Source: Paludibacter sp. (GTDB lineage Bacteria > Bacteroidota > Bacteroidia > Bacteroidales > Paludibacteraceae). From it: a stretch of 64,000 bases of DNA. Shown here piece by piece: positions 13,858 to 41,835 of the stretch (its first letter is position 1; every line of letters begins with the position of its first letter). Where the stretch lies: contig JAFLKK010000005.1 of assembly GCA_019163375.1 (NCBI GenBank), positions 159,511 through 223,510 of the forward strand. Reading direction: 5' to 3'. The position numbers and the translations under genes were made by a program. The notes beneath the pieces are model-generated. The model was not told the DNA's origin, searched no databases, and saw nothing but the letters and a program-made list of their open reading frames with translations.

Positions 13858-14382
13858 CTACCAAATAATATTTGCCATTTTTATGGCAGTAATTGCAGCT
13901 TCTATGCCTTTATTTCCATGTATTCCGTCGGCTCTATCAAGTGCTTGTTGTAAGGTATTGGTTGTGAGTACTCCAAAAATAACAGGACAGCCATCGGCGC
14001 TTGTATTTAATTTTGCAATTCCATAAGTTACACCCTGACAAACATAGTCGAAGTGAGGCGTATCGCCTTGTATCACGCATCCAAGAACGATAACAGCAAC
14101 ATATTTGTGCACTTTTTTATTTTCAATCAGACAATAGTAGTCTTCTTGCAATTGCTTTGCAGCGTAGGTGAGTTCGAAAGTTCCCGGTACATGAATCACT
14201 TTTATCTGAGATTGTTTAACCCCGCCATCAACTAAAGTAGCTATAGCACCATTAAGCAATGTATGCGTTATTGTCGGATTCCAATCGGCTACAACAATTG
14301 CATATTGCTGTTCAGAGACCTTTGCTTTGTCCGGCATTGAATCGGCATCGTATTCCGATAGATTTTGATATTGAGTTGCCAT
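13858..14382 (-). CDS. ribH: 6,7-dimethyl-8-ribityllumazine synthase
   Basis: 174 aa. Condenses 5-amino-6-ribitylaminouracil with dihydroxybutanone phosphate, the penultimate step of riboflavin synthesis. Family motifs are present: VADWNP near residue 31, [14 protein letters not shown] (65-78), [15 protein letters not shown] with the catalytic His110, and [18 protein letters not shown] near the C-terminus. A non-conserved N-terminal tail of about 25 residues is slightly longer than in many homologues. Same strand as the TPR gene upstream, but 140 bp and a terminator separate them. No FMN riboswitch is evident in that gap. Confidence 0.95.
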
Positions 14383-14464
14383 AAAAATAAACGTTTTATT
14401 GTTTTTTGATTGTAATGAAGCTCAAAATAGAAGAGCAAAAAACTTTCGAAGTTATAGATAAACG

Positions 14465-15255: not shown

Positions 15256-15600
15256 GATAATTTCTTTTAAATAGCGAAATTTTAGCTCAGATTTTTTTCA
15301 TATATGTTGAGTTCTACCGACTTGCCATTAAATAAATCGACAATGCTCACATTTAACTAATTTTATTGCCATAAAATGCCCGCAGAATAAATAAAATACA
15401 GTACATTTGTAATAGAAAAAGACTACCGCATTGTTCTGAGATTGGAAAACTCAACGTTTAAAATTTAAACGAGAAATGTCTGGTTTTTAATGGCGGGCTG
15501 CGCCTTCGGGTATCCTCTATGGACGGCAGATTACAACGAAAACCAACACCTCAAATCCTATCATATAGGAGTTTTCTCAACTAACGGCAATGCGGTTTTC
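15256..15600. other. Intergenic stretch downstream of mfd
   Basis: About 345 bp between the mfd stop and the TPR promoter. It is AT-rich with a GC-richer patch at 15490-15540. No gene, RNA or clear terminator recognised. Short frames here lack coding features. Confidence 0.5.
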
Positions 15601-18600
15601 TCATCTTCCTACCTCAGTAAATATTTCCCAGGCTTTCTCTACCGTCTTTACATCCATAAATACTACCGAACGACGCATATTCCGCTCCCTAAGCTGGCAT
15701 TTACGTGGATGAGTAGTCATATATTGTAACAAACGACCAAACGGTTCTGATTGATAATAAGGTGATTGAGGATTCGACACCAAAAATGCTGTCATTTGTT
15801 CGTTTTTGAGTACCAGTTTTTCTACGCCGTAACGCATTGCTAACCAACGCAGTTTTACTACCAACATAAGGCTTTGTCCTTCGGTAGGTATTTTCCCAAA
15901 CCGGTCTTCCAGTCGTTTTTCAAACTCAATTAAACTAGCTTCATCCTGGATGCTATCCAATTCGCGATACAAACTAATACGTTCAGATACATTCTCTATA
16001 TAGTCTGATGAAAACAGAACTTCCAAATCGGAATCAATCTGACAATCGGTTACAAAAATGGTTGAGCTCTCATTTTCAGCACGTTCATCGGCATAAAGTT
16101 CTGCAAATTCTTCATCTTTTAATTCATGAACGGCTTCGTTCAGAATTTTTTGATAGGTTTCGTATCCCAGATCGGCAATAAATCCACTCTGCTCCGCTCC
16201 CAGCATGTTTCCGGCACCACGTATATCAAGATCCTGCATTGCAATATTAAAACCACTCCCTAGCTCTGCGAATGTTTCAATAGCCTGCAATCTTCGACGA
16301 GCTTCAGGGGTAAGCAAACTCATTTCGGGAGCAAGCAAATAACAGAAAGCTTTTCGGTTACTTCGTCCTACCCTACCCCGCAATTGATGTAAATCACTCA
16401 ATCCAAAATTATGAGCGCTATTTATAATAATAGTATTCGCATTCGAAATATCAATACCCGATTCGATAATGGTGGTAGCAACCAGCACATCGTACTCATA
16501 ATCAATGAAATCAACAATAATCTCTTCTAATTTATCAGCCGGCATTTGTCCATGCCCCACTGCTACCCTACAACCCGGGATAAGTCGTTTTATCAGCGCT
16601 TCAATATTATAAATACTCTGAATACGATTATTTACAAAGAAAACTTGTCCATTTCTATTCATTTCCAGCTGAATAGCTTCACGAATAACATCTTCGTCAA
16701 ATAAATGAATTTCGGTTTGTACCGGATAGCGATTGGGCGGTGGCGTATTGATAATGGACAAATCGCGCGCACCCATCAGCGAAAACTGCAAGGTGCGTGG
16801 AATTGGCGTAGCTGTCATGGTAAGTGTATCCACATTTACCTTCATCTCTTTTAGTTTTTCCTTTATCGACACGCCGAACTTTTGCTCTTCGTCAATAATC
16901 AATAATCCCAGGTCTTTGAACTTTACGCTTTTGCCAACTAATTTGTGTGTGCCGATAACAATATCCACCTCGCCTTTTTCCAGACGTTCCATTACTTCTT
17001 TCGATTCTTTGGCCGAGCGGGCACGGCTTAAATACTCAATGGTACATGGAAAATCTTCCAATCTACTTTTAAAAGTATTATAATGTTGCAAGGCTAGAAC
17101 GGTAGTTGGCACCAATACGGCCACTTGCTTGCTATCGGTAACTGCCTTAAAAGCAGCACGAATAGCAATTTCAGTTTTACCAAACCCTACATCGCCACAT
17201 ACTAATCTATCCATGGGTAAAGTCGATTCCATATCTTTCTTTACATCGGCGGTCGATTTTATCTGGTCGGGAGTGTCTTCGTATATAAATGATGCTTCGA
17301 GTTCTTGTTGCAGGTAACTATCAGGCGAATATTGAAATCCCTGTTCCGCCTTGCGTTTTGCATACAGCTTAATGAGCTCACGAGCAATGTCTTTTACCTT
17401 CGATTTGGTGCGTTCTTTTAGTCGTTCCCATGCGCCTGAGCCAAGCTTGTTGATGCGTGGGGCTTCACCTTCTTTGCCTTTGTACTTAGAAATGCGGTGC
17501 AAAGCATGTATGCTTACAAATATGATGTCATCATCTTTGTAAATCAGTTTTACCATTTCCTGCATCTTTCCGTTCACATTGGTGCGCACCAATCCACCAA
17601 AAGTCCCTACTCCATGATCAACGTGCACCATAAAATCGCCTTGCTGAAATTGGTTTAACTCCTTAAGAGTCATCACCACTTTTCCTAAACGCGTTTTATC
17701 TGTTTTGAGTTGGAATTTATGAAAACGATCGAAAATTTGATGATCGGAATAGCACAGAAGTGATAAATCATGGTCGATAAATCCTTCGTGCAAGGTATTT
17801 TTTACCGGTTGAAAAGAAATAGCATCACCCCTATCGGAAAAAATGGCTGCAATACGGTCGGTTTGTTTGGTACTATCGCTCAGAATATAAATTTTATACC
17901 CATCGTTTGTCCATTTTTTCAGGTTGTCAGCCACCAGGTCGAAGTTCTTATGGAAAATCGGCTGTGGAGAAGTATTGAACGAAACAGTTGTTTTATGTTT
18001 AAAAACGGCCTTTTCACCCCATTCAATTTTACGAAACGGCTGTATCAATTCAATAAATTCATCGCCGGTAATCATTGTTTTATGCAAACCGGCCGTTTTA
18101 TGATCGCCCGCATTGGCTTTTACCAGCGCTTCATCGTAAAGTTGATTGATCCTCTCTTTCACAAAATGCACACCGGAGAAAGTCAACCATGTATTGGAAT
18201 CAATAAACTCAAAAAAAGAAACATGTGGCGAAGTTGTATCGCGATGCAAATCCGGAACGATGATAATCTCAGTTTTATGTTCCTGCGATAATTGCGTTTC
18301 GATATCAAAAACACGAATTGACTCTACCTCATCACCAAAGAAATCGCAACGATATGGCAATTCAAATGCAAACGAGAAAATATCGACAATACTACCTCTG
18401 ACGGAAAACTGCCCCGGTTCGTATACAAAGTCTACGCGTTCAAATCCATAATCCAACAGCATTTCCACTATGAAATCAATGCTAAGCTTCTCGCCAACTC
18501 TCATTTTCAACATTTTGGATTGCATGCCATTTACCGAAATTACTTTCTGTATCAACGATTCGGGATAGCTTATTACCACGCAGGGCGATGCATTATTTGC

Positions 18601-29751: not shown

Positions 29752-31089
29752 TTATAGAACACCTTGTGCAATCATTGCTTTTGCCACTTTCATAAAGCCG
29801 GCAATATTGGCACCTTTCACATAATTTACAAAGCCATCCTTTTCGGTGCCATATTCTGCGCACGAAGCGTGAATGCTATTCATGATGCTTTTGAGTTTTT
29901 CATCCACCTCTTCTTTAGTCCAGCTTAGCTTTATCGAATTTTGGGTCATTTCTAAACCGGAAACGGATACTCCACCCGCATTGGCGGCCTTACCGGGACC
30001 ATACAAAATTTTGTGTTTCAAAAATATCTCTACAGCTTCGGGAGTAGAAGGCATATTAGCCCCCTCGGACACCGCTATGCAGCCATTATTCATCAGCATT
30101 TCAGCATCGTCTCCATTCAATTCGTTTTGTGTGGCCGAAGGCAAAGCGATTGTACATTTCTCGCTCCAGGGCCGACCACCTTCCACGTATTTACAACCGT
30201 ATTTGTCGGCATATTCTTTAATACGTCCACGATAGAGATTTTTTAGTTCGAAAATATAGGCCAGTTTTTCGCTATCAATACCATCGGCATCGTAAATATA
30301 TCCACTACTATCAGATAGCGTTACAACTTTTCCGCCCAACTCTATCACTTTTTCTGCGGTGTAGGTAGCTACATTGCCCGAGCCCGAAATTGCTACTACC
30401 TGTCCTTTTAGATCGGTAATCCCTTTATACTTCAACATATTCATCAAAAAATAGATGTTACCGTAACCGGTTGCTTCGGGACGGATCAACGATCCTCCAA
30501 ATCCAAGACCTTTTCCGGTAAAGGTACCGGTGTTTTCGCGCGCCAGCTTCTTGTACATACCGTACATATAAGCCACTTCGCGTCCTCCAACCCCTATATC
30601 GCCTGCCGGTACGTCTGTTTCCGGACCGATATGATGCCAAAGCTCCAGCATAAATGCCTGACAGAAGCGCATTATTTCTTCGTTCGACTTTCCTTTGGGA
30701 CTAAAGTCGGATCCACCTTTAGCACCTCCCATCGGCAATGTGGTGAGTGCATTCTTAAAGGTTTGCTCGAAGGCTAAGAATTTCAGAACCGAGGGACATA
30801 CCGAAGCGTGAAATCGCATACCACCTTTGTAAGGGCCTATTGCGTTGTTGTGCTGAACGCGGTAGGCCATGTTTGTTTTTACATTACCCTTATCGTCGAC
30901 CCAGGTAACACGGAAGGTGAAAATTCGTTCGGGGATGCAGATACGTTCAATTAAATTTTGTTTTTCAAACTCGGGATGTTCATTGTACACTTCTTCGATG
31001 GAATGTAATACCTCTTCTACAGCCTGATGATACTCCGGCTCATTTGGAAATCTGCCTTTCAAATTGTTGATGACTTGTTCTACTTTCAT
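29752..31089 (-). CDS. gdhA: Glutamate dehydrogenase
   Basis: 445 aa hexameric-type GDH. Reversibly aminates 2-oxoglutarate to glutamate; the preference for NADPH is assumed from the family. Motifs: YKGGMRFHASVCPSVLKFLA, catalytic Lys in PMGGAKGGSDF, ETDVPAGDIGVGGREV, and nucleotide-binding SGSGNVATY. ATG at 31089 (MKVEQVINNL) is chosen. A longer reading to 31155 would start inside the promoter. 445 aa equals the normal family length. It is divergent from the porin-glnK-amt operon and belongs to the nitrogen cluster. Confidence 0.95.
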   Translation of the reverse strand: MKVEQVINNLKGRFPNEPEYHQAVEEVLHSIEEVYNEHPEFEKQNLIERICIPERIFTFRVTWVDDKGNVKTNMAYRVQHNNAIGPYKGGMRFHASVCPSVLKFLAFEQTFKNALTTLPMGGAKGGSDFSPKGKSNEEIMRFCQAFMLELWHHIGPETDVPAGDIGVGGREVAYMYGMYKKLARENTGTFTGKGLGFGGSLIRPEATGYGNIYFLMNMLKYKGITDLKGQVVAISGSGNVATYTAEKVIELGGKVVTLSDSSGYIYDADGIDSEKLAYIFELKNLYRGRIKEYADKYGCKYVEGGRPWSEKCTIALPSATQNELNGDDAEMLMNNGCIAVSEGANMPSTPEAVEIFLKHKILYGPGKAANAGGVSVSGLEMTQNSIKLSWTKEEVDEKLKSIMNSIHASCAEYGTEKDGFVNYVKGANIAGFMKVAKAMIAQGVL

Positions 31090-31124
31090 TGTAATACATT
31101 TTTTAGTTCTTATTGTTTGAATTC

Positions 31125-32705: not shown

Positions 32706-33062
32706 ATGAAAAAAATTGAAGCAATTATCCGCACTTCCAAATTTTCAGAAGTACAGGCAGCTTTACGAGAAGCTGGTATCGATTTCTTTACATATGCTGA
32801 TGTAACCGGCGTAGGAAATGAGGTTGATAAAGGTGAACACAGCTACCGAGGTACTGTCTATGACACAACTTACATACCAAGACAATTATTAACAATAGTT
32901 GTGCGTGATGTGAATGCTGAGAAAACAATAGCTGCAGTTCTGAAAGCTGCTAAAACTGGCGAAATAGGAGATGGTAAAATCTTCATTTCAACTATTGACG
33001 ATTCATATCGCATTAGAACCGGAGAAAACGGCGACACTTCACTATACAACAAAGAAGCTTAA
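32706..33062 (+). CDS. glnK: P-II nitrogen regulator (GlnK-type), copy 1
   Basis: 118 aa. Trimeric signal protein that senses ATP/ADP and 2-oxoglutarate and gates the Amt channel. Begins MKKIEAIIRTSKF. The T-loop (about 37-55) reads GNEVDKGEHSYRGTVYDTTY with Tyr residues at the positions where modification or Amt contact occurs in relatives. The ATP-binding TGEIGDGKIFIS and the C-terminal RIRTGENGD are typical. It is 34 bp before amt1 on the same strand, the usual glnK-amtB pairing. Very similar to copy 2 at 37255. Confidence 0.93.
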   Translation: MKKIEAIIRTSKFSEVQAALREAGIDFFTYADVTGVGNEVDKGEHSYRGTVYDTTYIPRQLLTIVVRDVNAEKTIAAVLKAAKTGEIGDGKIFISTIDDSYRIRTGENGDTSLYNKEA

Positions 33063-33095: not shown

Positions 33096-34637
33096 ATGAA
33101 AAAGTATATATTATTGATATTATTAATGCTGGTGACTGCATCTGCATCTAGCTATTTGTACGCAGAGAAAGCAGCCGACCCAACAGGAGCAACGACTGGA
33201 ACTGCCAGCGATATTGCCGCTGCTACTCCGGGTGCACCAACACTGGATGAAGTTGCAGCTCAAGCAGGTCATAACAAAGTGGCCATTAACATGGTATGGG
33301 TATTGGTTACCGGATTTATTGTAATGTTTATGCAGTTCGGTTTTGCTGCCGTAGAAGGTGGTATGACCCGTGCCAAAAATGCGTCCCACACCTTTGCTAT
33401 GAACTTTTTGATTTATCCTTTGGGTATGATTGGGTTCTTTATATGTGGATTTGCATTTATGTTTGGTGGTGTAGGCGCACTTGGAACACTGGGTGGATAC
33501 GACGGCTTAAACCAGGAATTCACTATTAACATAGCAGGACATGCATTTGGTTTAATTGGAACAAAAGGGTTCTTCCTTAGTGGCGTATACGACGTTTCTG
33601 TATTTGCTCTATTCTTATTCCAAATGGTATTTATGGATACAACTGCTACTATTCCTACTGGTTCTATGGCTGAAAGATGGAAATATTCTTCATTCTTTAT
33701 TTATGGTCTTTTAGTAGGTTCAATCATCTATCCAATCTACGGAAACTGGGTATGGGGCGGTGGCTGGTTGTCACAACTTGGTAACATGTTTGGTTTTGGA
33801 CACGGTCATGTTGATTTCGCAGGTTCATCTGTAGTTCACTTAAGTGGTGGTGTATTGGCATATGTTGGAGCAAAAATGCTTGGTCCACGTTTAGGAAAAT
33901 ACAACAAAAACGGATCTGCAAATGCAATTCCCGGACACAATCTTCCACTTGCAATCCTTGGTGCTTTCGTACTTGCATTCTGTTGGTTCTCTTTCAACGC
34001 CGGATCTTCATTAGCCGGTGGTGATCTAAGAATATCAATTGTTGCTGTAAATACAATGATTGCTTCTGCAACCGGCGCATTGGCTTCAACACTTTATATG
34101 TGGTTCTTTAAAACTAAAAAGCCAGATCCAACTATGATGATAAACGGTTTACTTGCCGGATTGGTTGCAATTACTGCACCTTGTGCTTTCGTAACTGTAG
34201 GTTCTGCTGCTTTGATTGGTTTAATTTCAGGTATTTTGGTAATTGAAGCCGCATTCTTTATTGAACTTAAACTTAAAATCGATGATCCTGTTGGTGCAAT
34301 TGCAGTACACGGTGTAAACGGTGCATTTGGCTGTATAGCTCTTGGATTATTTGCAGACGGAACATACGGAGACGGATTAAACGGTGTTAAGGGCAATGTA
34401 ACAGGTTTGTTTTACGGTGACGGAGGTCAGTTAATTGCTCAAACTATTGGAGTTGCCTCAAATATCATATATATTGGTTTAGTAGGCTGGGTAGTATTCA
34501 AATTAATTGATCTGGTTGTTGGAAATCGCGTTAGTGCTGAAGATGAACTCAGAGGTCTTGATATTCCTGAAATGGGCGTTGAAGCTTATTCAGGTATCAA
34601 AATGGACAAAAACTCTGAAACTCCGCTTTCAAGATAA
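33096..34637 (+). CDS. amt: Ammonium transporter (Amt/MEP), copy 1
   Basis: 513 aa. Cleavable signal (MKKYILLILLMLVTASASSY) and a 30-residue linker, then 11 membrane helices. Pore signatures: twin histidines in DFAGSSVVHLSGGV and AVHGVNGAFG, the outer phenylalanine region in FAAVEGGMTRAKNASH, and WFSFNAGSSLAGG. Moves ammonium into the cell under P-II control. The N-terminal extension and long C-terminal tail (EDELRGLDIPEMGVEAY) make it longer than copy 2. It is followed by its own terminator. Confidence 0.95.
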   Translation: MKKYILLILLMLVTASASSYLYAEKAADPTGATTGTASDIAAATPGAPTLDEVAAQAGHNKVAINMVWVLVTGFIVMFMQFGFAAVEGGMTRAKNASHTFAMNFLIYPLGMIGFFICGFAFMFGGVGALGTLGGYDGLNQEFTINIAGHAFGLIGTKGFFLSGVYDVSVFALFLFQMVFMDTTATIPTGSMAERWKYSSFFIYGLLVGSIIYPIYGNWVWGGGWLSQLGNMFGFGHGHVDFAGSSVVHLSGGVLAYVGAKMLGPRLGKYNKNGSANAIPGHNLPLAILGAFVLAFCWFSFNAGSSLAGGDLRISIVAVNTMIASATGALASTLYMWFFKTKKPDPTMMINGLLAGLVAITAPCAFVTVGSAALIGLISGILVIEAAFFIELKLKIDDPVGAIAVHGVNGAFGCIALGLFADGTYGDGLNGVKGNVTGLFYGDGGQLIAQTIGVASNIIYIGLVGWVVFKLIDLVVGNRVSAEDELRGLDIPEMGVEAYSGIKMDKNSETPLSR

Positions 34638-34729: not shown

Positions 34730-35143
34730 ATGACTAAAGAAGATAACACATTGAATTGCTACATAAAATTATTTCCCAAATGGATCGCTTATGTAGTTTT
34801 AGTTGCGGGCATAGCAGGCGCCTTTATTATACCTGTTACATCAGTCGCCTTTTATATATGGATTGGCTTATGTGGATTATTCATTGCAAAAACACTGACT
34901 CAAAAACCACAAATTGAACCGGTTATAGTTTTAGCAGAAACCGGAATTCAATTAAAAAATGAACAGTTTTATCCCTATAATGAAATCGAAAAAGTCATGG
35001 CATTCTCTGTCAAAAGACTAAGATTCAGAACAATAAATTTTAAATTATATTTAAAAAAAGGCAATCAAATTGAATTTAATGTTGATAATTTAAGTATCAA
35101 GCCTCAACATTTGCTTGATGTGATAAATGAAAAAATAAAATAG
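34730..35143 (+). CDS. Small membrane protein with PH-like tail
   Basis: 137 aa. Two adjacent membrane helices (about 17-35 and 38-54: WIAYVVLVAGIAGAFIIPV, then FYIWIGLCGLFIA) followed by a soluble domain of about 80 residues. That domain (VIVLAETGIQLKNEQFYPYN, then RTINFKLYLKKGNQIEFNV) resembles a bacterial PH-like beta-barrel. It lies after the amt1 terminator and is unlikely to be essential to transport. No function is known. Its co-location with the nitrogen genes may be incidental. Confidence 0.6.
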   Translation: MTKEDNTLNCYIKLFPKWIAYVVLVAGIAGAFIIPVTSVAFYIWIGLCGLFIAKTLTQKPQIEPVIVLAETGIQLKNEQFYPYNEIEKVMAFSVKRLRFRTINFKLYLKKGNQIEFNVDNLSIKPQHLLDVINEKIK

Positions 35144-35264
35144 AACATAGTACTCTCCAAATATAATTAGAATTATTTAGACAGCAGAGTATTTTATTCT
35201 ATTCTCTCTTTATATAGATATGTAGGTTGTGTTACACAATAGTATTTATGTAAATATTCCCCAA

Positions 35265-35358
35265 ACACGGTGAAACTGCTTACAACTAATCGTGTGTTTT
35301 TTAGTTTTATTGTTTCAAACAGGCTATTTCGTGAGAAATGGCCTGTTTATTTATAGAC
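35265..35358 (+). ncRNA. Bipartite structured RNA element, copy 1
   Basis: First half: ACACG pairs with CGTGT around a 20-nt loop (GTGAAACTGCTTACAACTAA then T), followed by TTTTTTAGTTTTATTGTTT. Second half: AAACAGGC-T-ATTTC with a GTGA tetraloop and GAAAT-G-GCCTGTTT, a 14-bp hairpin. Copy 2 (39033-39122) shares 47 of the first 51 bases. Its distal stem keeps pairing by compensatory changes, which supports a real RNA structure. It is 121 bp after the small membrane gene and before the nhaD promoter. It could be a complex terminator or the 3' part of a small RNA. Confidence 0.6.
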
Positions 35359-35462
35359 CCTTTAGTACTTTACCTACAAGCTAACCACAACATTTGATTC
35401 GCATTTTTTTAAATTATAATACATATATTAACTGCCCAAGCCCATATTTGACAAATTATATG

Positions 35463-35470
35463 TAACTTTG
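35463..35470 (+). promoter_or_regulatory. -7 box for nhaD
   Basis: TAACTTTG, matching TAnnTTTG, 58 bp before the ATG. A TTTG lies upstream, but only 12 bp away, so the -33 element is unclear. Confidence 0.55.
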
Positions 35471-35528
35471 GCGGGTGCAAAATAAAAAAAAACAAACCTC
35501 CTAGTGGGTTAAATTAAACAAGATAAGA

Positions 35529-36854
35529 ATGAAAGATATTGCAATGATTCCTTTATGGTGCTCTATTCCATTTGTAGTAATGCTTCTGGCCATTGCCGTC
35601 GGACCGCTTATTGCCGAAAAGTGGTGGGGCGAAAACAAAAACAAACTACTTGTTTCTCTATTTCTAAGTATTCCGGTAACCATTTATATGTTGGTAAATG
35701 GTCTTTCCGAAAGCCTGATCGACACCGTAGCGTATGACTACATTCCGTTTATGGTTTTGCTCGGATCCTTATTTGTTATTACCGGGGGCATTCATTTGTC
35801 GGGTGATATTAAGGCCAGCCCGATTAACAACACACTATTTTTGGGTATAGGTTATGTGTTGGCATCTGTTATGGGTACCACCGGAGCCGCCATGCTGCTT
35901 ATCCGTCCGGTAATCACTACTAACCAGGAGCGTAAATATACGACTCATACCATATTGTTTTTTATTGCCACGGTGGCCAACTGTGGCGGACTTTTAACCC
36001 CACTCGGCGATCCTCCCCTATTTATGCTTTACCTGCGTGGAGCTGAATTTACGTGGTTTCTCAATTTGTTTCCACAATGGATTTTTGCCGGAACCTTATT
36101 GCTTTTGATCTATTATTTTGTGGATCGGTATTATTACAAAAAAGAAGACTGGGTAGATATAGCCGAAGATTATATTCGGGTAGAACCAATTCGGGTATCC
36201 GGCAATATTAATTTCTTGTTTCTGATAGGTGTGGTTATCTCGGTTGCTTTTATCAACAAGGGAAACATTCCTCAGATGGGCGAAGAACATGCAGCTATCT
36301 GGCTGAAGTATCTTCGGGAAATCGTGCTCTTGGTTCTCACCGCTATGTCATTGTATTATACCAAAAAGGAAGTTCGCAACAGTAATAAATTTACATGGGA
36401 ACCTATCATTGAAGTTGCTTATCTGTTTTTGGGTATTTTTGTAACCATGGCTCCTACATTACTTTGGTTGGCAAAAAATGCTGCAAGTTTTGGAGTAACC
36501 GAACCCTGGCAGTTTTTATATGCTTCGGGCACGCTAAGTTCATTTCTGGACAATACTCCTACCGCAGTTGCTTTTTATGATTTAGCACGCGGTTTAGTTT
36601 CCGGAGGATTACCGGCGACACTTTCGGGCTCAACAATGATAGCCGGAGTTCCTGAAATTATATTAAAAGCCATTTGTGTAGGAGCCGTATTTTTTGGATC
36701 CATGACCTATATTGGTAATGGTCCTAACTTTATGGTAAAATCTATTGCCGAAGAAAGTGGCATAAAAATGCCTGGTTTTTTTGCTTATATGTGGAAATTT
36801 TCGCTGATTGTACTATTGCCAGTCTATATCCTGGTTCAATTGATTTTCATATAG
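35529..36854 (+). CDS. nhaD: NhaD-type Na+/H+ antiporter
   Basis: 441 aa integral membrane protein with about 12 helices, in the ion-transporter (ArsB/NhaD) superfamily. Characteristic elements: HLSGDIKASPINNTLFLGIG, NCGGLLTPLGDPPLFML, SSFLDNTPTAVAFYDLARG, and MTYIGNGPNFMVKSIAEESG, the typical NhaD signature. Exchanges sodium for protons for pH and Na+ homeostasis. It has its own promoter and strong terminator, so it is not strictly in an operon with amt. It may balance charge or Na+ while nitrogen uptake runs, but that is speculative. Confidence 0.9.
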   Translation: MKDIAMIPLWCSIPFVVMLLAIAVGPLIAEKWWGENKNKLLVSLFLSIPVTIYMLVNGLSESLIDTVAYDYIPFMVLLGSLFVITGGIHLSGDIKASPINNTLFLGIGYVLASVMGTTGAAMLLIRPVITTNQERKYTTHTILFFIATVANCGGLLTPLGDPPLFMLYLRGAEFTWFLNLFPQWIFAGTLLLLIYYFVDRYYYKKEDWVDIAEDYIRVEPIRVSGNINFLFLIGVVISVAFINKGNIPQMGEEHAAIWLKYLREIVLLVLTAMSLYYTKKEVRNSNKFTWEPIIEVAYLFLGIFVTMAPTLLWLAKNAASFGVTEPWQFLYASGTLSSFLDNTPTAVAFYDLARGLVSGGLPATLSGSTMIAGVPEIILKAICVGAVFFGSMTYIGNGPNFMVKSIAEESGIKMPGFFAYMWKFSLIVLLPVYILVQLIFI

Positions 36855-36903
36855 ATTTTTATCGGCACAAAAAAAAATAAGTTGATTCGAATCGAATCAG
36901 TAC

Positions 36904-36950
36904 AAAGCACAGCCAACTATTTTATTATAAATAGTTGGCTGTGCTTTTTT
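36904..36950 (+). terminator. Very strong terminator after nhaD
   Basis: AAAGCACAGCCAACTATTT pairs with AAATAGTTGGCTGTGCTTT (19 bp), loop of 6-7 nt, followed by T-run. Confidence 0.92.
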
Positions 36951-37087
36951 GTTGAATATACATCTGATACCAAAATGTAGTTTTTACTAAAAACGAGTAT
37001 TTACAATAGAATCAGCCGTAAAATCCAACCTCAATGTCGCTATTTTGAGTTAAATAATACCTTTTTGTTGTTTTTTATATGGTTTTG

Positions 37088-37107
37088 TTGTCATTTTGCT
37101 TGTGTAA
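37088..37107. repeat. Left arm of 20-bp inverted repeat at glnK2 promoter
   Basis: TTGTCATTTTGCTTGTGTAA; reverse complement matches 37177-37196 at 19 of 20 positions. It overlaps the -33 element. Confidence 0.8.
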
Positions 37108-37130
37108 TTCAAAACAAAGGTATACTTTTG
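37100..37130 (+). promoter_or_regulatory. Promoter of glnK2-amt2 (TTG, 20 bp, TACTTTTG)
   Basis: TTG at 37100-37102, 20-bp spacer, TACTTTTG at 37123-37130. The transcript leader would be about 115 bases. The inverted-repeat arms lie on both sides. Confidence 0.75.
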
Positions 37131-37176
37131 CAATCAAATTATTCAAATATACTACTTTTTGACACAAATAAGGCAT

Positions 37177-37196
37177 TTACACAAGTAAAATGACAA
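37177..37196. repeat. Right arm of 20-bp inverted repeat at glnK2 promoter
   Basis: TTACACAAGTAAAATGACAA, about 40-50 bp downstream of the expected transcription start. Confidence 0.8.
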
Positions 37197-37254
37197 ATAT
37201 TTCATACATTTATGTAAGAAGTAACAATAAATAAAAACAAATAAAACACGATTT

Positions 37255-37602
37255 ATGAAAAAAATTGAAGCAATTATCCGCAAATCAAAATTTGAAGATG
37301 TAAAAGAAGCACTTTATGATCAAGGCATCGAATGGTTCTCTTATTGGGATATTACCGGACTTGGTAAATCGACAGAAGAGCAAATTGTAAGAGGTCAGGT
37401 ATTCCAATCGAGCTACATTCATCGCAGAATGTTATCCATCGTGGTTCGTGACATTAATCTCGAAAAAACAATAAATGCCATTCTGGACTCGGCATGGACC
37501 GGCGAAACCGGAGATGGAAAAATATTTGTTTACGATATTGAAGATACATTCCGTATTCGTAACCGTGAATCAGGCCCGGACGCATTGTTTAACAAAGAAT
37601 AA
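37255..37602 (+). CDS. glnK: P-II nitrogen regulator (GlnK-type), copy 2
   Basis: 115 aa. Starts MKKIEAIIRKSKFEDVKEAL, and the T-loop region (GLGKSTEEQIVRGQVFQSSY) differs from copy 1: it lacks the SYRG sequence of copy 1 and has a Val before Arg-Gly. This suggests partner-specific gating of amt2 and no Tyr at that position for modification. TGETGDGKIFVYDIED and RIRNRESGPDALFNKE are conserved. It lies 47 bp before amt2 in its own operon. Confidence 0.93.
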   Translation: MKKIEAIIRKSKFEDVKEALYDQGIEWFSYWDITGLGKSTEEQIVRGQVFQSSYIHRRMLSIVVRDINLEKTINAILDSAWTGETGDGKIFVYDIEDTFRIRNRESGPDALFNKE

Positions 37603-37649
37603 GAGAAAGAGATAATACAAAAGTTTAAGCATTAAGAAGAAAAAAAGTT

Positions 37650-39020
37650 ATGAAGAAAAATATTTTATCAATAATGGCTCTTTTAGCCTTATCAGTTTCT
37701 GCGCTATCGGCTCAAACGGCTGCGCCTGTTGCCCCCACTGTAGATGCCGGAGACACGGCATGGATGATTGTTGCCACTGCATTTGTGCTACTTATGTCTA
37801 TTCCCGGATTGGCCTTATTTTATGGTGGTTTGGTTCGTCGCAAAAACGTACTGAACGTTTTCATGCAGGTATTTATCCTGGTAGCTGTTATCAGTGTAGA
37901 ATGGGTGATAATTGGTTATAGCAATGCATTTGGATCCAACTCTATAGAAGCACTTAAACCGTATATTGGTGGATTTGATTGGGCATTTTTAAACAACATC
38001 GGCATTAATGATTTAAGCCCTTACTTTATTTCACACTCACAAGTTGGACTTGATGGTGCTGCTGTAGGAACTATACCGCATATCATATTTATCATGTTCC
38101 AATGTATGTTTGCGGTTATTACTCCTGCTTTAATTATTGGAGCATTTGCCGAACGTATTAATTTTAAAGGCTTTCTAATTTTCTCTGTCCTTTGGTCTTT
38201 ATTTATCTACAATCCTGTAGCACACTGGGTTTGGGCTGGTGATGGTTGGTTATTTAAACTAGGAGCATTGGATTTTGCCGGAGGTACCGTAGTACACATC
38301 AATGCCGGTGTAGCTGCCATTGTTACAGCTATCATGCTTGGAAAACGTCGCGACTATAAAGGTCATGCTATACCTGCTCACAACATTACCTATGTGGTTA
38401 TTGGTGCCGGTTTGCTATGGGTTGGTTGGTTTGGATTTAATGCAGGTAGTGGATTGGCTGCCGATGGATTAGCTGCTAATGCATTAATGGTTACACATAT
38501 TGCTGCTGCTGCTGCCGCATTAACATGGGCTCTTTTGGACTGGATTATCGACAAACGCCCAACCATTGTAGGTATCAGTACCGGTGCAGTAGGCGGTTTG
38601 GTTGCTATTACCCCTGCAGCAGGATTTGTGGGAATTCCCGGAGCATTGGCTATTGGAGTATTGGTATCGTTGGTATGTTTTTGCATGGTAGCTTACGTAA
38701 AACCAAAATTAGGATACGACGATTCGCTCGATGCATTTGGTGTTCACGGTGTTGGTGGTATTTTAGGCGCACTTTTAACCGGAGTATTGGCATCACCTCT
38801 TATCCAATCGTCGTACAGTGGAGCTATTTACGGAAACTTCCACCAATTATGGATACAATTCCTGGCCGTGGGTGTAACAATAGTTTTCTCTGGTGTCGGT
38901 ACATTTATACTGTTTAAGCTTGTCGATAAATTGGTCGGACTACGTGCTTCGGACAAACATGAAGCCATTGGTCTTGATGAAACTCAACATGGCGAAACAG
39001 CTTACAACAACTTTGATTAA
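37650..39020 (+). CDS. amt: Ammonium transporter (Amt/MEP), copy 2
   Basis: 456 aa, cleavable signal (SVSALSA, then Q) and 11 helices. AmtB-type signatures: DTAWMIVATAFVLLMSIPGL (start of helix 1), ALFYGGLVRRKNVLN, twin histidines in DFAGGTVVHINAG and AFGVHGVGGILGALLTG, and WFGFNAGSGLAADG. Closer to the classical AmtB group than copy 1. C-terminus GLRASDKHEAIGLDETQHGE is the tail that contacts GlnK in relatives. Follows glnK2 and precedes the second RNA element by 13 bp. Confidence 0.95.
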   Translation: MKKNILSIMALLALSVSALSAQTAAPVAPTVDAGDTAWMIVATAFVLLMSIPGLALFYGGLVRRKNVLNVFMQVFILVAVISVEWVIIGYSNAFGSNSIEALKPYIGGFDWAFLNNIGINDLSPYFISHSQVGLDGAAVGTIPHIIFIMFQCMFAVITPALIIGAFAERINFKGFLIFSVLWSLFIYNPVAHWVWAGDGWLFKLGALDFAGGTVVHINAGVAAIVTAIMLGKRRDYKGHAIPAHNITYVVIGAGLLWVGWFGFNAGSGLAADGLAANALMVTHIAAAAAALTWALLDWIIDKRPTIVGISTGAVGGLVAITPAAGFVGIPGALAIGVLVSLVCFCMVAYVKPKLGYDDSLDAFGVHGVGGILGALLTGVLASPLIQSSYSGAIYGNFHQLWIQFLAVGVTIVFSGVGTFILFKLVDKLVGLRASDKHEAIGLDETQHGETAYNNFD

Positions 39021-39032
39021 TCAAACACCCAT

Positions 39033-39122
39033 ACACGGTGAAATTGGCTACAACGAATCGTGTGTTTTTTAGTTTTATTGTTTAGGGCAGATCATCTCGT
39101 GAGAAATGATCTGCCTATAGAC
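39033..39122 (+). ncRNA. Bipartite structured RNA element, copy 2
   Basis: Begins 13 bp after amt2. ACACG pairs with CGTGT around a 20-nt loop almost identical to copy 1, then TTTTTTAGTTTTATTGTTT. The distal hairpin GGCAGATCAT-C-TC, GTGA loop, GA-A-ATGATCTGCC has a different sequence from copy 1 but the same fold; at least four base pairs are compensatory. The first half looks like a Rho-independent terminator for amt2. The conserved loop and distal hairpin go beyond what termination needs. Confidence 0.6.
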
Positions 39123-41758: not shown

Positions 41759-41835
41759 GCAAAAAACAATAAAACAAATTAACACAGCAGATTAGCTAAA
41801 AGCAACAGTTTTTAAGCGTATAACAAAGAAAAGCT

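Follow-up and report, generated by a model that had tools for sequence, protein, structure and literature searches.

A conserved element behind the amt units of Paludibacter as a candidate base-pairing regulatory RNA

The amt-linked element and related regulatory RNAs

In enterobacteria, the regulatory RNA GlnZ is released from the 3' untranslated region (3'UTR) of the glnA messenger RNA (mRNA) (PMC9731577); likewise, another report describes small RNAs (sRNAs) of Bacteroides that work by pairing near start codons (PMC11697453). Here we describe an element present in two copies behind the ammonium-transport (amt) units of a Paludibacter sp. genome, within a stretch of 64,000 nucleotides (nt), hereafter the window (assembly GCA_019163375.1, contig JAFLKK010000005.1, positions 159,511 to 223,510 of the forward strand; genome G000 and contig C7 in our analysis labels). 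On balance, we favour the reading that this element is the 3' end of the Paludibacter amt transcripts and acts as a base-pairing regulatory RNA, in the manner of sRNAs derived from 3'UTRs, a reading drawn from sequence comparison. The enterobacteria that host GlnZ belong to a different phylum from Paludibacter.

The element would resemble GlnZ in its location in the 3'UTR of a nitrogen-assimilation mRNA, in its conserved seed and in the metabolic nature of its mRNA targets (PMC9731577). It differs in the parent gene, amt instead of glnA, in its targets, and in being multicopy in some of the genomes; the likeness is one of kind only. FopS and GibS, as presented in passages of two reports, are sRNAs of Bacteroides, thus likewise from Bacteroidota, for which seed pairing near start codons and, for FopS, paralogous copies are described; these RNAs regulate polysaccharide utilization loci or other metabolic genes, (PMC11697453, PMC7366714), whereas the Paludibacter copies are found after amt units and have their complement in nitrogen genes. 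As regards physiology, passages on Prevotella ruminicola state that the transcripts of amtB, glnK, gltB, glnN, gdhA, dapF and asnB change with ammonium supply and that ammonium limitation strongly induces amtB and glnK, while other passages of the same paper give amtB as higher in non-limiting ammonium (PMC5552732). Since amtB is reported both ways there, the response in Paludibacter could go in either direction. An RNA such as the one proposed here was not found described among the matches listed from an open-access library, which is weak evidence of absence. To our knowledge, Hfq is lacking or rare in Bacteroidota.

A repeat comparison within the window placed copy 1 at 35260-35350 and copy 2 at 39028-39118, each of 91 nt and with 81% identity. 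An earlier note on this DNA had described a paired element downstream of both ammonium-transport units, with 47 of the first 51 bases shared; both copies were found at these places, and direct reading from 35265 and 39033 gave the same count, with all four mismatches within the loop of hairpin 1. Copy 2 is separated from the stop codon of amt2 by 12 nt, and copy 1 starts 627 nt past the stop codon of amt1, with an open reading frame (ORF) of 137 residues in between. The proposed RNA would consist of a short stem (ACACG/CGUGU) with a variable loop, followed by a U-rich seed, CGUGUGUUUUUUAGUUUUAUUGUUU, and by a closing hairpin with a GUGA-type loop. In copy 1, all on the forward strand, hairpin 1 (ACACGGU/AUCGUGU stem) spans 35265..35295, the U-rich core CGUGUGUUUUUUAGUUUUAUUGUUU spans 35291..35315 and is proposed as the seed from the conservation of AGUUUUAUUGUU and its complement in nitrogen mRNAs, and the terminator-like hairpin 2, with its GUGA loop, was placed at 35317..35348 by folding, alignment and covariation. 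The corresponding parts of copy 2, also on the forward strand, are hairpin 1 at 39033..39063 (from folding, alignment and the pairing in the 16 closest copies), the U-rich core at 39059..39083 (from alignment and conservation over 58 copies) and hairpin 2 at 39085..39116, which has a GUGA loop and is not followed by a U-run.

Neither copy is matched in folding energy by any of 200 dinucleotide shuffles (z -4.81 and -5.65). The stem of hairpin 1 is present in the best predicted fold of copy 2 and absent from that of copy 1, where its 5' side pairs with the U-rich linker instead; the same pairing, between the 5' side and the U-rich core, is seen in the energy-based consensus fold of the 16 closest copies. 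These two alternative folds were seen for the copies with an amt-like loop, and a switch between them is possible according to the predictions. In the 16 closest copies the stem of hairpin 1 can pair throughout (100%), and six of its seven pairs are invariant, so that it shows no two-sided changes. Hairpin 2 has changes on both sides at five pairs over these copies, against 1.7 +/- 0.7 in shuffles. For the copies of the window, the GUGA loop and the four pairs with two-sided changes agree with the earlier description. It gave a single wobble/Watson-Crick change; the alignment shows two one-sided changes (A-U to G-U and U-G to C-G), as well as a pair disrupted in copy 2 (C-A) that it did not mention.

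Of 100 genomes searched with a pattern, 13, among them the window's own, yielded a total of 16 copies, and all 13 belong to the genus Paludibacter. The covariance model R1 was built from these 16 closest copies, and it matches 41 of the 48 genomes of the genus at E <= 0.001. This search for homologues, which the earlier note had put forward, thus found further copies: on fetched loci, 58 copies with at least 47.9 bits are present in 39 of the 48 genomes (genomes counted by hand). Upstream of 49 copies, on the same strand, there is amt, amt-glnK or amt-hyp137; one copy has amt 1.7 kb upstream, and the other eight have no recognised gene upstream, some of them at contig ends, with glnN following six of the eight. 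The exact 23-nt core GTGTGTTTTTTAGTTTTATTGTT occurs in 38 stretches of a GTDB set with one genome per species (84,980 species), all assigned by eye to Paludibacter contigs, in a scan that may omit records near the genome of the window. Two more weak matches in the window's own genome (35.7 and 34.6 bits), the first inspected by sequence only, lie away from the amt units of the window.

Comparison of the 58 copies revealed that the nearly invariant part of the element is the U-rich linker, where AGUUUUAUUGUU / AGTTTTATTGTT is 98-100% identical, against 32-59% in the far flanks; the 5' flanks are not conserved. A perfect 5' arm of at least 5 bp was found in 43 of 56 copies (the other two copies being too close to the end of a contig), versus 131 of 1120 shuffles. 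Hence, of the stem-loop with a 20-nt conserved loop and a U-rich linker that had been described, the stem is partly kept and the linker stands out even more, but the loop varies in length and sequence. The stress laid on the covarying hairpin 2 was misplaced, given that the U-rich core behind a second class of amt in genome G014 (L209) comes with an unrelated hairpin.

Hairpin 1 of the closest copies has the sequence CAC GGT GAA ACT GCT TAC AAC TAA, i.e., the C-terminal HGETAYN-stop of an amt gene, which the loop of copy 1 also resembles. HGETAYN-stop is the actual end of the amt reading frame in genome G034, and the end of amt2 itself (38986-39008) is 87% like hairpin 1; because of these three observations, hairpin 1 of the closest copies probably derives from the end of an amt gene. 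This end motif is also that of E. coli AmtB. The possibility that the whole element is a mobile element or an amt gene remnant was rejected, because the amt-like part is not conserved in divergent copies, whereas the core is.

An order-level scan gave model matches at E <= 0.01 in 19 of 393 genomes, including the window's own, and the outside matches, as seen by eye and with the exception of L021 and L025, are mainly to the end hairpin or to the coding end of amt2 (L024, L031). Exact TTTTNNAGTTTTATTGTT is present in 23 of 150 genomes of the family; outside the genus these were inspected by sequence alone, except L249. Among sister genera, g226 (L192, L193) and g230 (L196) have altered forms of the core behind amt, and the core was not seen by eye at the other amt2 relatives inspected (g225, g235, g10, g224, g7 and one of g226). 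In g235 (L198-L204), a different hairpin directly follows the amt2-like stop codon, and its apical part, which resembles (T)GGCAGAGCGTC(A), is conserved; by eye, its stems differ yet keep pairing, and a separate terminator-like hairpin then follows. Five of these loci (L198, L199, L200, L203 and L204) gave no match in Rfam.

The comparison with Rfam that the earlier note had also suggested names no known family: a scan of the whole window against Rfam 15 at gathering threshold had no match over the element, and only RF01693 and two tRNAs elsewhere. Below threshold, copy 1 scores 37.1 bits (E 4e-05) with BTnc231 (RF04180), whose gathering score is 80.4, and copy 2 is not listed. The two share an end hairpin with UUCGUGAGAA; in our reading of the alignment, the score of copy 1 comes mostly from that hairpin. 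Similarly, the region of copy 2 gave 19.5 bits (E 1.5) with GibS (RF04182), below the gathering threshold of 115.

Complementary sites in nitrogen genes

The complement of the core recurs across the genus in the 3'UTR of argG, in the leaders of gltB and gdhA, and in some glnK leaders. It was first noticed in the leaders of glnK2 and then in the 3' ends of argG. In 10 of 37 glnK2 leaders no more than 2 of 200 shuffles did equally well, and among leaders of other genes this held for 12 of 172. The fetched loci comprised 30 of 42 argG matches and 30 of 64 gdhA matches, the latter being 24 of the first paralogue and 6 of the 40 others; TorF, NhaD, AspC/dapL, glnN and Hyp137 are our own working labels. 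Exact ACAATAAAAC was counted in stretches of 60 nt (argG and gdhA), 110 nt (gltB) or 70 nt (most leaders). It is present in 20/28 gltB leaders, 16/30 argG trailers, 7/37 glnK2 leaders, 4/24 leaders of the first gdhA paralogue and 2/14 dapL-like leaders; in the seven control sets it occurs in none of 185 (TorF 31, Amt1 31, GlnK1 25, Amt2 34, GlnN 28, argG leader 30, second gdhA paralogue 6), nor in two tiny sets (Hyp137 3, NhaD 4). All occurrences of the decamer counted in these sets are in sense orientation, with no antisense case. In argG and gltB, conservation is higher at the site than in the sequence around it; the difference is less clear in gdhA.

When the real core was compared with shuffled cores, it surpassed 200 of 200 in the argG trailers (z -6.3, n 30), the gltB leaders (z -6.0, n 27), the leaders of the first gdhA paralogue (z -5.9, n 22) and the glnK2 leaders (z -3.7, n 37); the leaders of argG (z +1.3) and of the second gdhA paralogue (z -0.9) gave no such signal. 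Sites matching at least 13 of 17 positions were found in 20/30 argG trailers, 15/24 first-paralogue gdhA leaders, 25/28 gltB leaders and 17/37 glnK2 leaders, a level that letter-shuffled sequences reach in 3%, 2%, 6% and 15%, respectively; none was found in 30 argG leaders or in 6 leaders of the second gdhA paralogue. The dapL-like set reaches this level in 4/14, and the letter shuffles of GlnN in 32%. The exact decamer separates target from non-target sets better than the 13/17 criterion.

Regarding their position, the sites end 7-16 nt before the ATG in gdhA and 1-15 nt in glnK2, with one at 48; in gltB, 18 of 25 sites are located 46-65 nt before the start (starts chosen by script), and the argG site is a conserved block of the 3'UTR just before a hairpin. 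Outside the amt elements, 13 of the 16 exact 17-nt matches listed are at argG (7), gdhA (2), glnK2 (2), gltB (1) and dapF (1), in counts that leave out genomes G004, G008 and G036. With at most one mismatch, 157 matches were found genus-wide versus 71 in the control, the 157 including the amt elements themselves. Site inspection, which covered 40 fetched regions, also revealed sites in single genomes: in G002 before dapF-like, NagB-like and unnamed 194-residue genes, and in G014 before genes resembling diaminopimelate dehydrogenase, gltB and carB (all names by eye).

In the window's own genome, the gltB leader has a predicted pairing site at 41765..41781 (forward strand), with AACAATAAAAC exact at 41765-41775, and its duplex energy of -18.7 was reached by 0 of 400 shuffles. 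The predicted site of the gdhA leader, AAACAATAAGAACTAAAAAA, lies at 31099..31118 on the reverse strand, 9 nt before the ATG at 31089 (-16.5; 3 of 400 shuffles as good). Pairing is also significant for the argG trailer (6 of 400), and not for dapL, glnK1, amt1, amt2, nhaD, glnN or the argG leader. Within the window AACAATAAAAC occurs four times, i.e., antisense in the two elements, in the gltB leader, and on the minus strand at 14382-14403, where an ORF that by eye resembles ribH begins 10 nt further on; this last occurrence may be due to chance or be a further target.

In the sister genus g226, three gltB leaders (G503, G540 and G519) contain ACAATAAAACTTAA or differ from it by one base, and the elements of G503 and G540 read TTTTGAG where Paludibacter has TTTTTTAG, a change with which G-U pairs can form at this place. 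Compared with the Paludibacter core, that of g226 gives the better pairing in two of three g226 gltB leaders and the worse in one, which is a weak test. The gltB motif is absent from G458 and G554 (g226), from five leaders of g235, from two of g230, which has a variant element, and from G457 (g225), and it is at most partial in G518 (g225).

The proposed regulation and its alternatives

The core is conserved, it is linked to amt, and its complements lie on the sense strand of some nitrogen genes across the genus. A conserved seed together with a conserved complement in candidate target mRNAs, the pair of features sought for a base-pairing sRNA derived from a 3'UTR, is thus found within the genus. 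The earlier suggestion, that this could be a structured 3' element or the end of a small RNA linked to nitrogen genes, is partly supported: it agrees with these features, and its emphasis on the loop and on hairpin 2 does not. In the proposed mechanism, the region would be transcribed as an RNA end that accumulates, or is cut free, upon expression of amt, and its seed would then pair with the argG, gltB, gdhA and glnK mRNAs. Pairing beside the start codon, as in gdhA and glnK, should block translation; in the gltB leader, most of whose sites are at a greater distance from the start, and likewise in the 3'UTR of argG, it could affect mRNA stability or act by titration, with either sign. Ammonium uptake would in this way be coupled to the choice of assimilation route. 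A wider proposal, to which we give slightly less than even credence, is that these copies form a genus-wide, multicopy family of amt-derived sRNAs and a post-transcriptional nitrogen regulon in Bacteroidota, in which the seed would pair with the gdhA, gltB and glnK leaders and the argG 3'UTR, the transporter mRNA would report nitrogen shortage, and the argG mRNA would be a target or a sponge. If true, this would add a nitrogen-control RNA with a defined seed and four target genes for Bacteroidota, and a case of a transporter mRNA end that carries a nitrogen signal.

Several observations weigh against a base-pairing function. Seven of the 48 genomes of the genus have no model match at E 0.001, and at least four genomes without a detected element (G041, G009, G026 and G029) keep a 16/17 argG site. 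By eye, the site was seen in none of 20 argG trailers of sister genera, including that of G503, which has the element. The real core also does better than most shuffled ones on the leaders of TorF and Amt1 (each at rank 3 of 200), followed by Amt2 (rank 9) and GlnN (rank 18), and the 13/17 level is reached by the non-targets TorF (7/31), Amt1 (7/31), GlnK1 (6/25), Amt2 (6/34) and GlnN (13/28); moreover, orthologous leaders are non-independent samples. In the window's own genome, pairing of the glnK2 (171 of 400) and dapF (38 of 400) leaders does not stand out from that of shuffles, and a genome-wide count of complement sites, with two mismatches allowed, shows no excess (28 versus 32 in the control). 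The seed is hidden in the consensus fold of the closest copies, where the 5' side of the element pairs with it. Finally, one mechanism does not fit all sites, since the argG site lies in the 3'UTR and most gltB sites are far from the start.

The alternative that survives best, and that we still regard as unlikely, is that the element is a conserved transcription-end or mRNA-stability element of the amt operons only, in which the U-rich tract and hairpin would end or protect the mRNA, perhaps with an RNA-binding protein, its complementarity to A-rich leaders being incidental. In its favour, amt units end in hairpins accompanied by a U-rich tract, and by eye end hairpins with CGTGAG-type loops are shared by several unrelated Bacteroidales loci. 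Nevertheless, a terminator does not need a 12-nt sequence fixed at 98-100% over 58 copies, and the complementarity favours some nitrogen genes, where it exceeds that of all 200 shuffled U-rich cores. In addition, copy 2 lacks a U-run after its hairpin, and a simple terminator scan of the window, whose criterion was a G+C-rich stem directly followed by a U-run, called neither copy; by eye, U-runs do follow in many other copies. A terminator alone was rejected as insufficient for the nearly invariant core and the complement in the targets.

Less probable again is the reading that the shared sequence is bound, as DNA, by a nitrogen transcription factor near gltB, gdhA, glnK, argG and amt. All these genes come from one area of metabolism, and by eye a TAnnTTTG-like box closely precedes the site in gdhA and part of the gltB leaders; such a site is nevertheless hard to reconcile with the argG and amt sites behind the coding region, with the fixed orientation (sense in the target sets, antisense at amt), or with gdhA and glnK2 sites whose ends are, for the most part, no more than 16 nt away from the start codon. 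Furthermore, the g226 element and gltB site differ as DNA and are still able to pair as RNA through G-U pairs. The reverse direction, in which the amt 3' end would be a sponge for another RNA, for example one from the argG 3'UTR (AACAAUAAAACUAAAAA followed by a hairpin), is improbable: the conserved block before the argG hairpin and its persistence in the four genomes without a detected amt element are in its favour, but the same A-rich motif in the gltB, gdhA and glnK leaders looks like a shared target and not like several regulators, and argG lacks the site in sister genera.

Neighbouring genes and minor observations

The neighbourhood of the two copies includes dapF, gdhA, glnK1-amt1, the 137-residue ORF, glnK2-amt2, glnN and gltB. 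The first unit is formed by glnK1 (32706-33062) together with amt1 (33096..34637, forward strand), an ammonium transporter gene that matches TIGR00836 with 346.6 bits (cutoff 343.3). The 137-residue protein encoded between amt1 and copy 1 (34730..35143, forward strand) has a sub-cutoff match to the STM3941 family (26 bits versus 40). In the second unit, glnK2 (37255..37602, forward strand) encodes a PII-like protein for which PII models stay below their cutoffs (69.8 bits versus 202), and amt2 (37650..39020, forward strand) encodes an ammonium transporter that matches TIGR00836 with 444.8 bits. The name glnN is given here to a gene for a 731-residue glutamine-synthetase-like protein with sub-cutoff models only, and the protein labelled NhaD had no NCBIfam match.

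Upstream of glnK2, a 20-nt inverted repeat (37088-37107 and 37177-37196, 95%) flanks a TAnnTTTG-like box (approximately 37126-37133, by eye), and the two together are possibly the site of a regulator. End hairpins with CGTGAG-type loops, as in BTnc231, are shared by unrelated loci at the order level (L020, L026 and L037) and in the window's own genome (L041), and this type of hairpin looks like a favoured terminator hairpin. Elsewhere in the window, positions 15424-15603 match the Bacteroidales-1 (6S-like) RNA, RF01693, with 109.7 bits.

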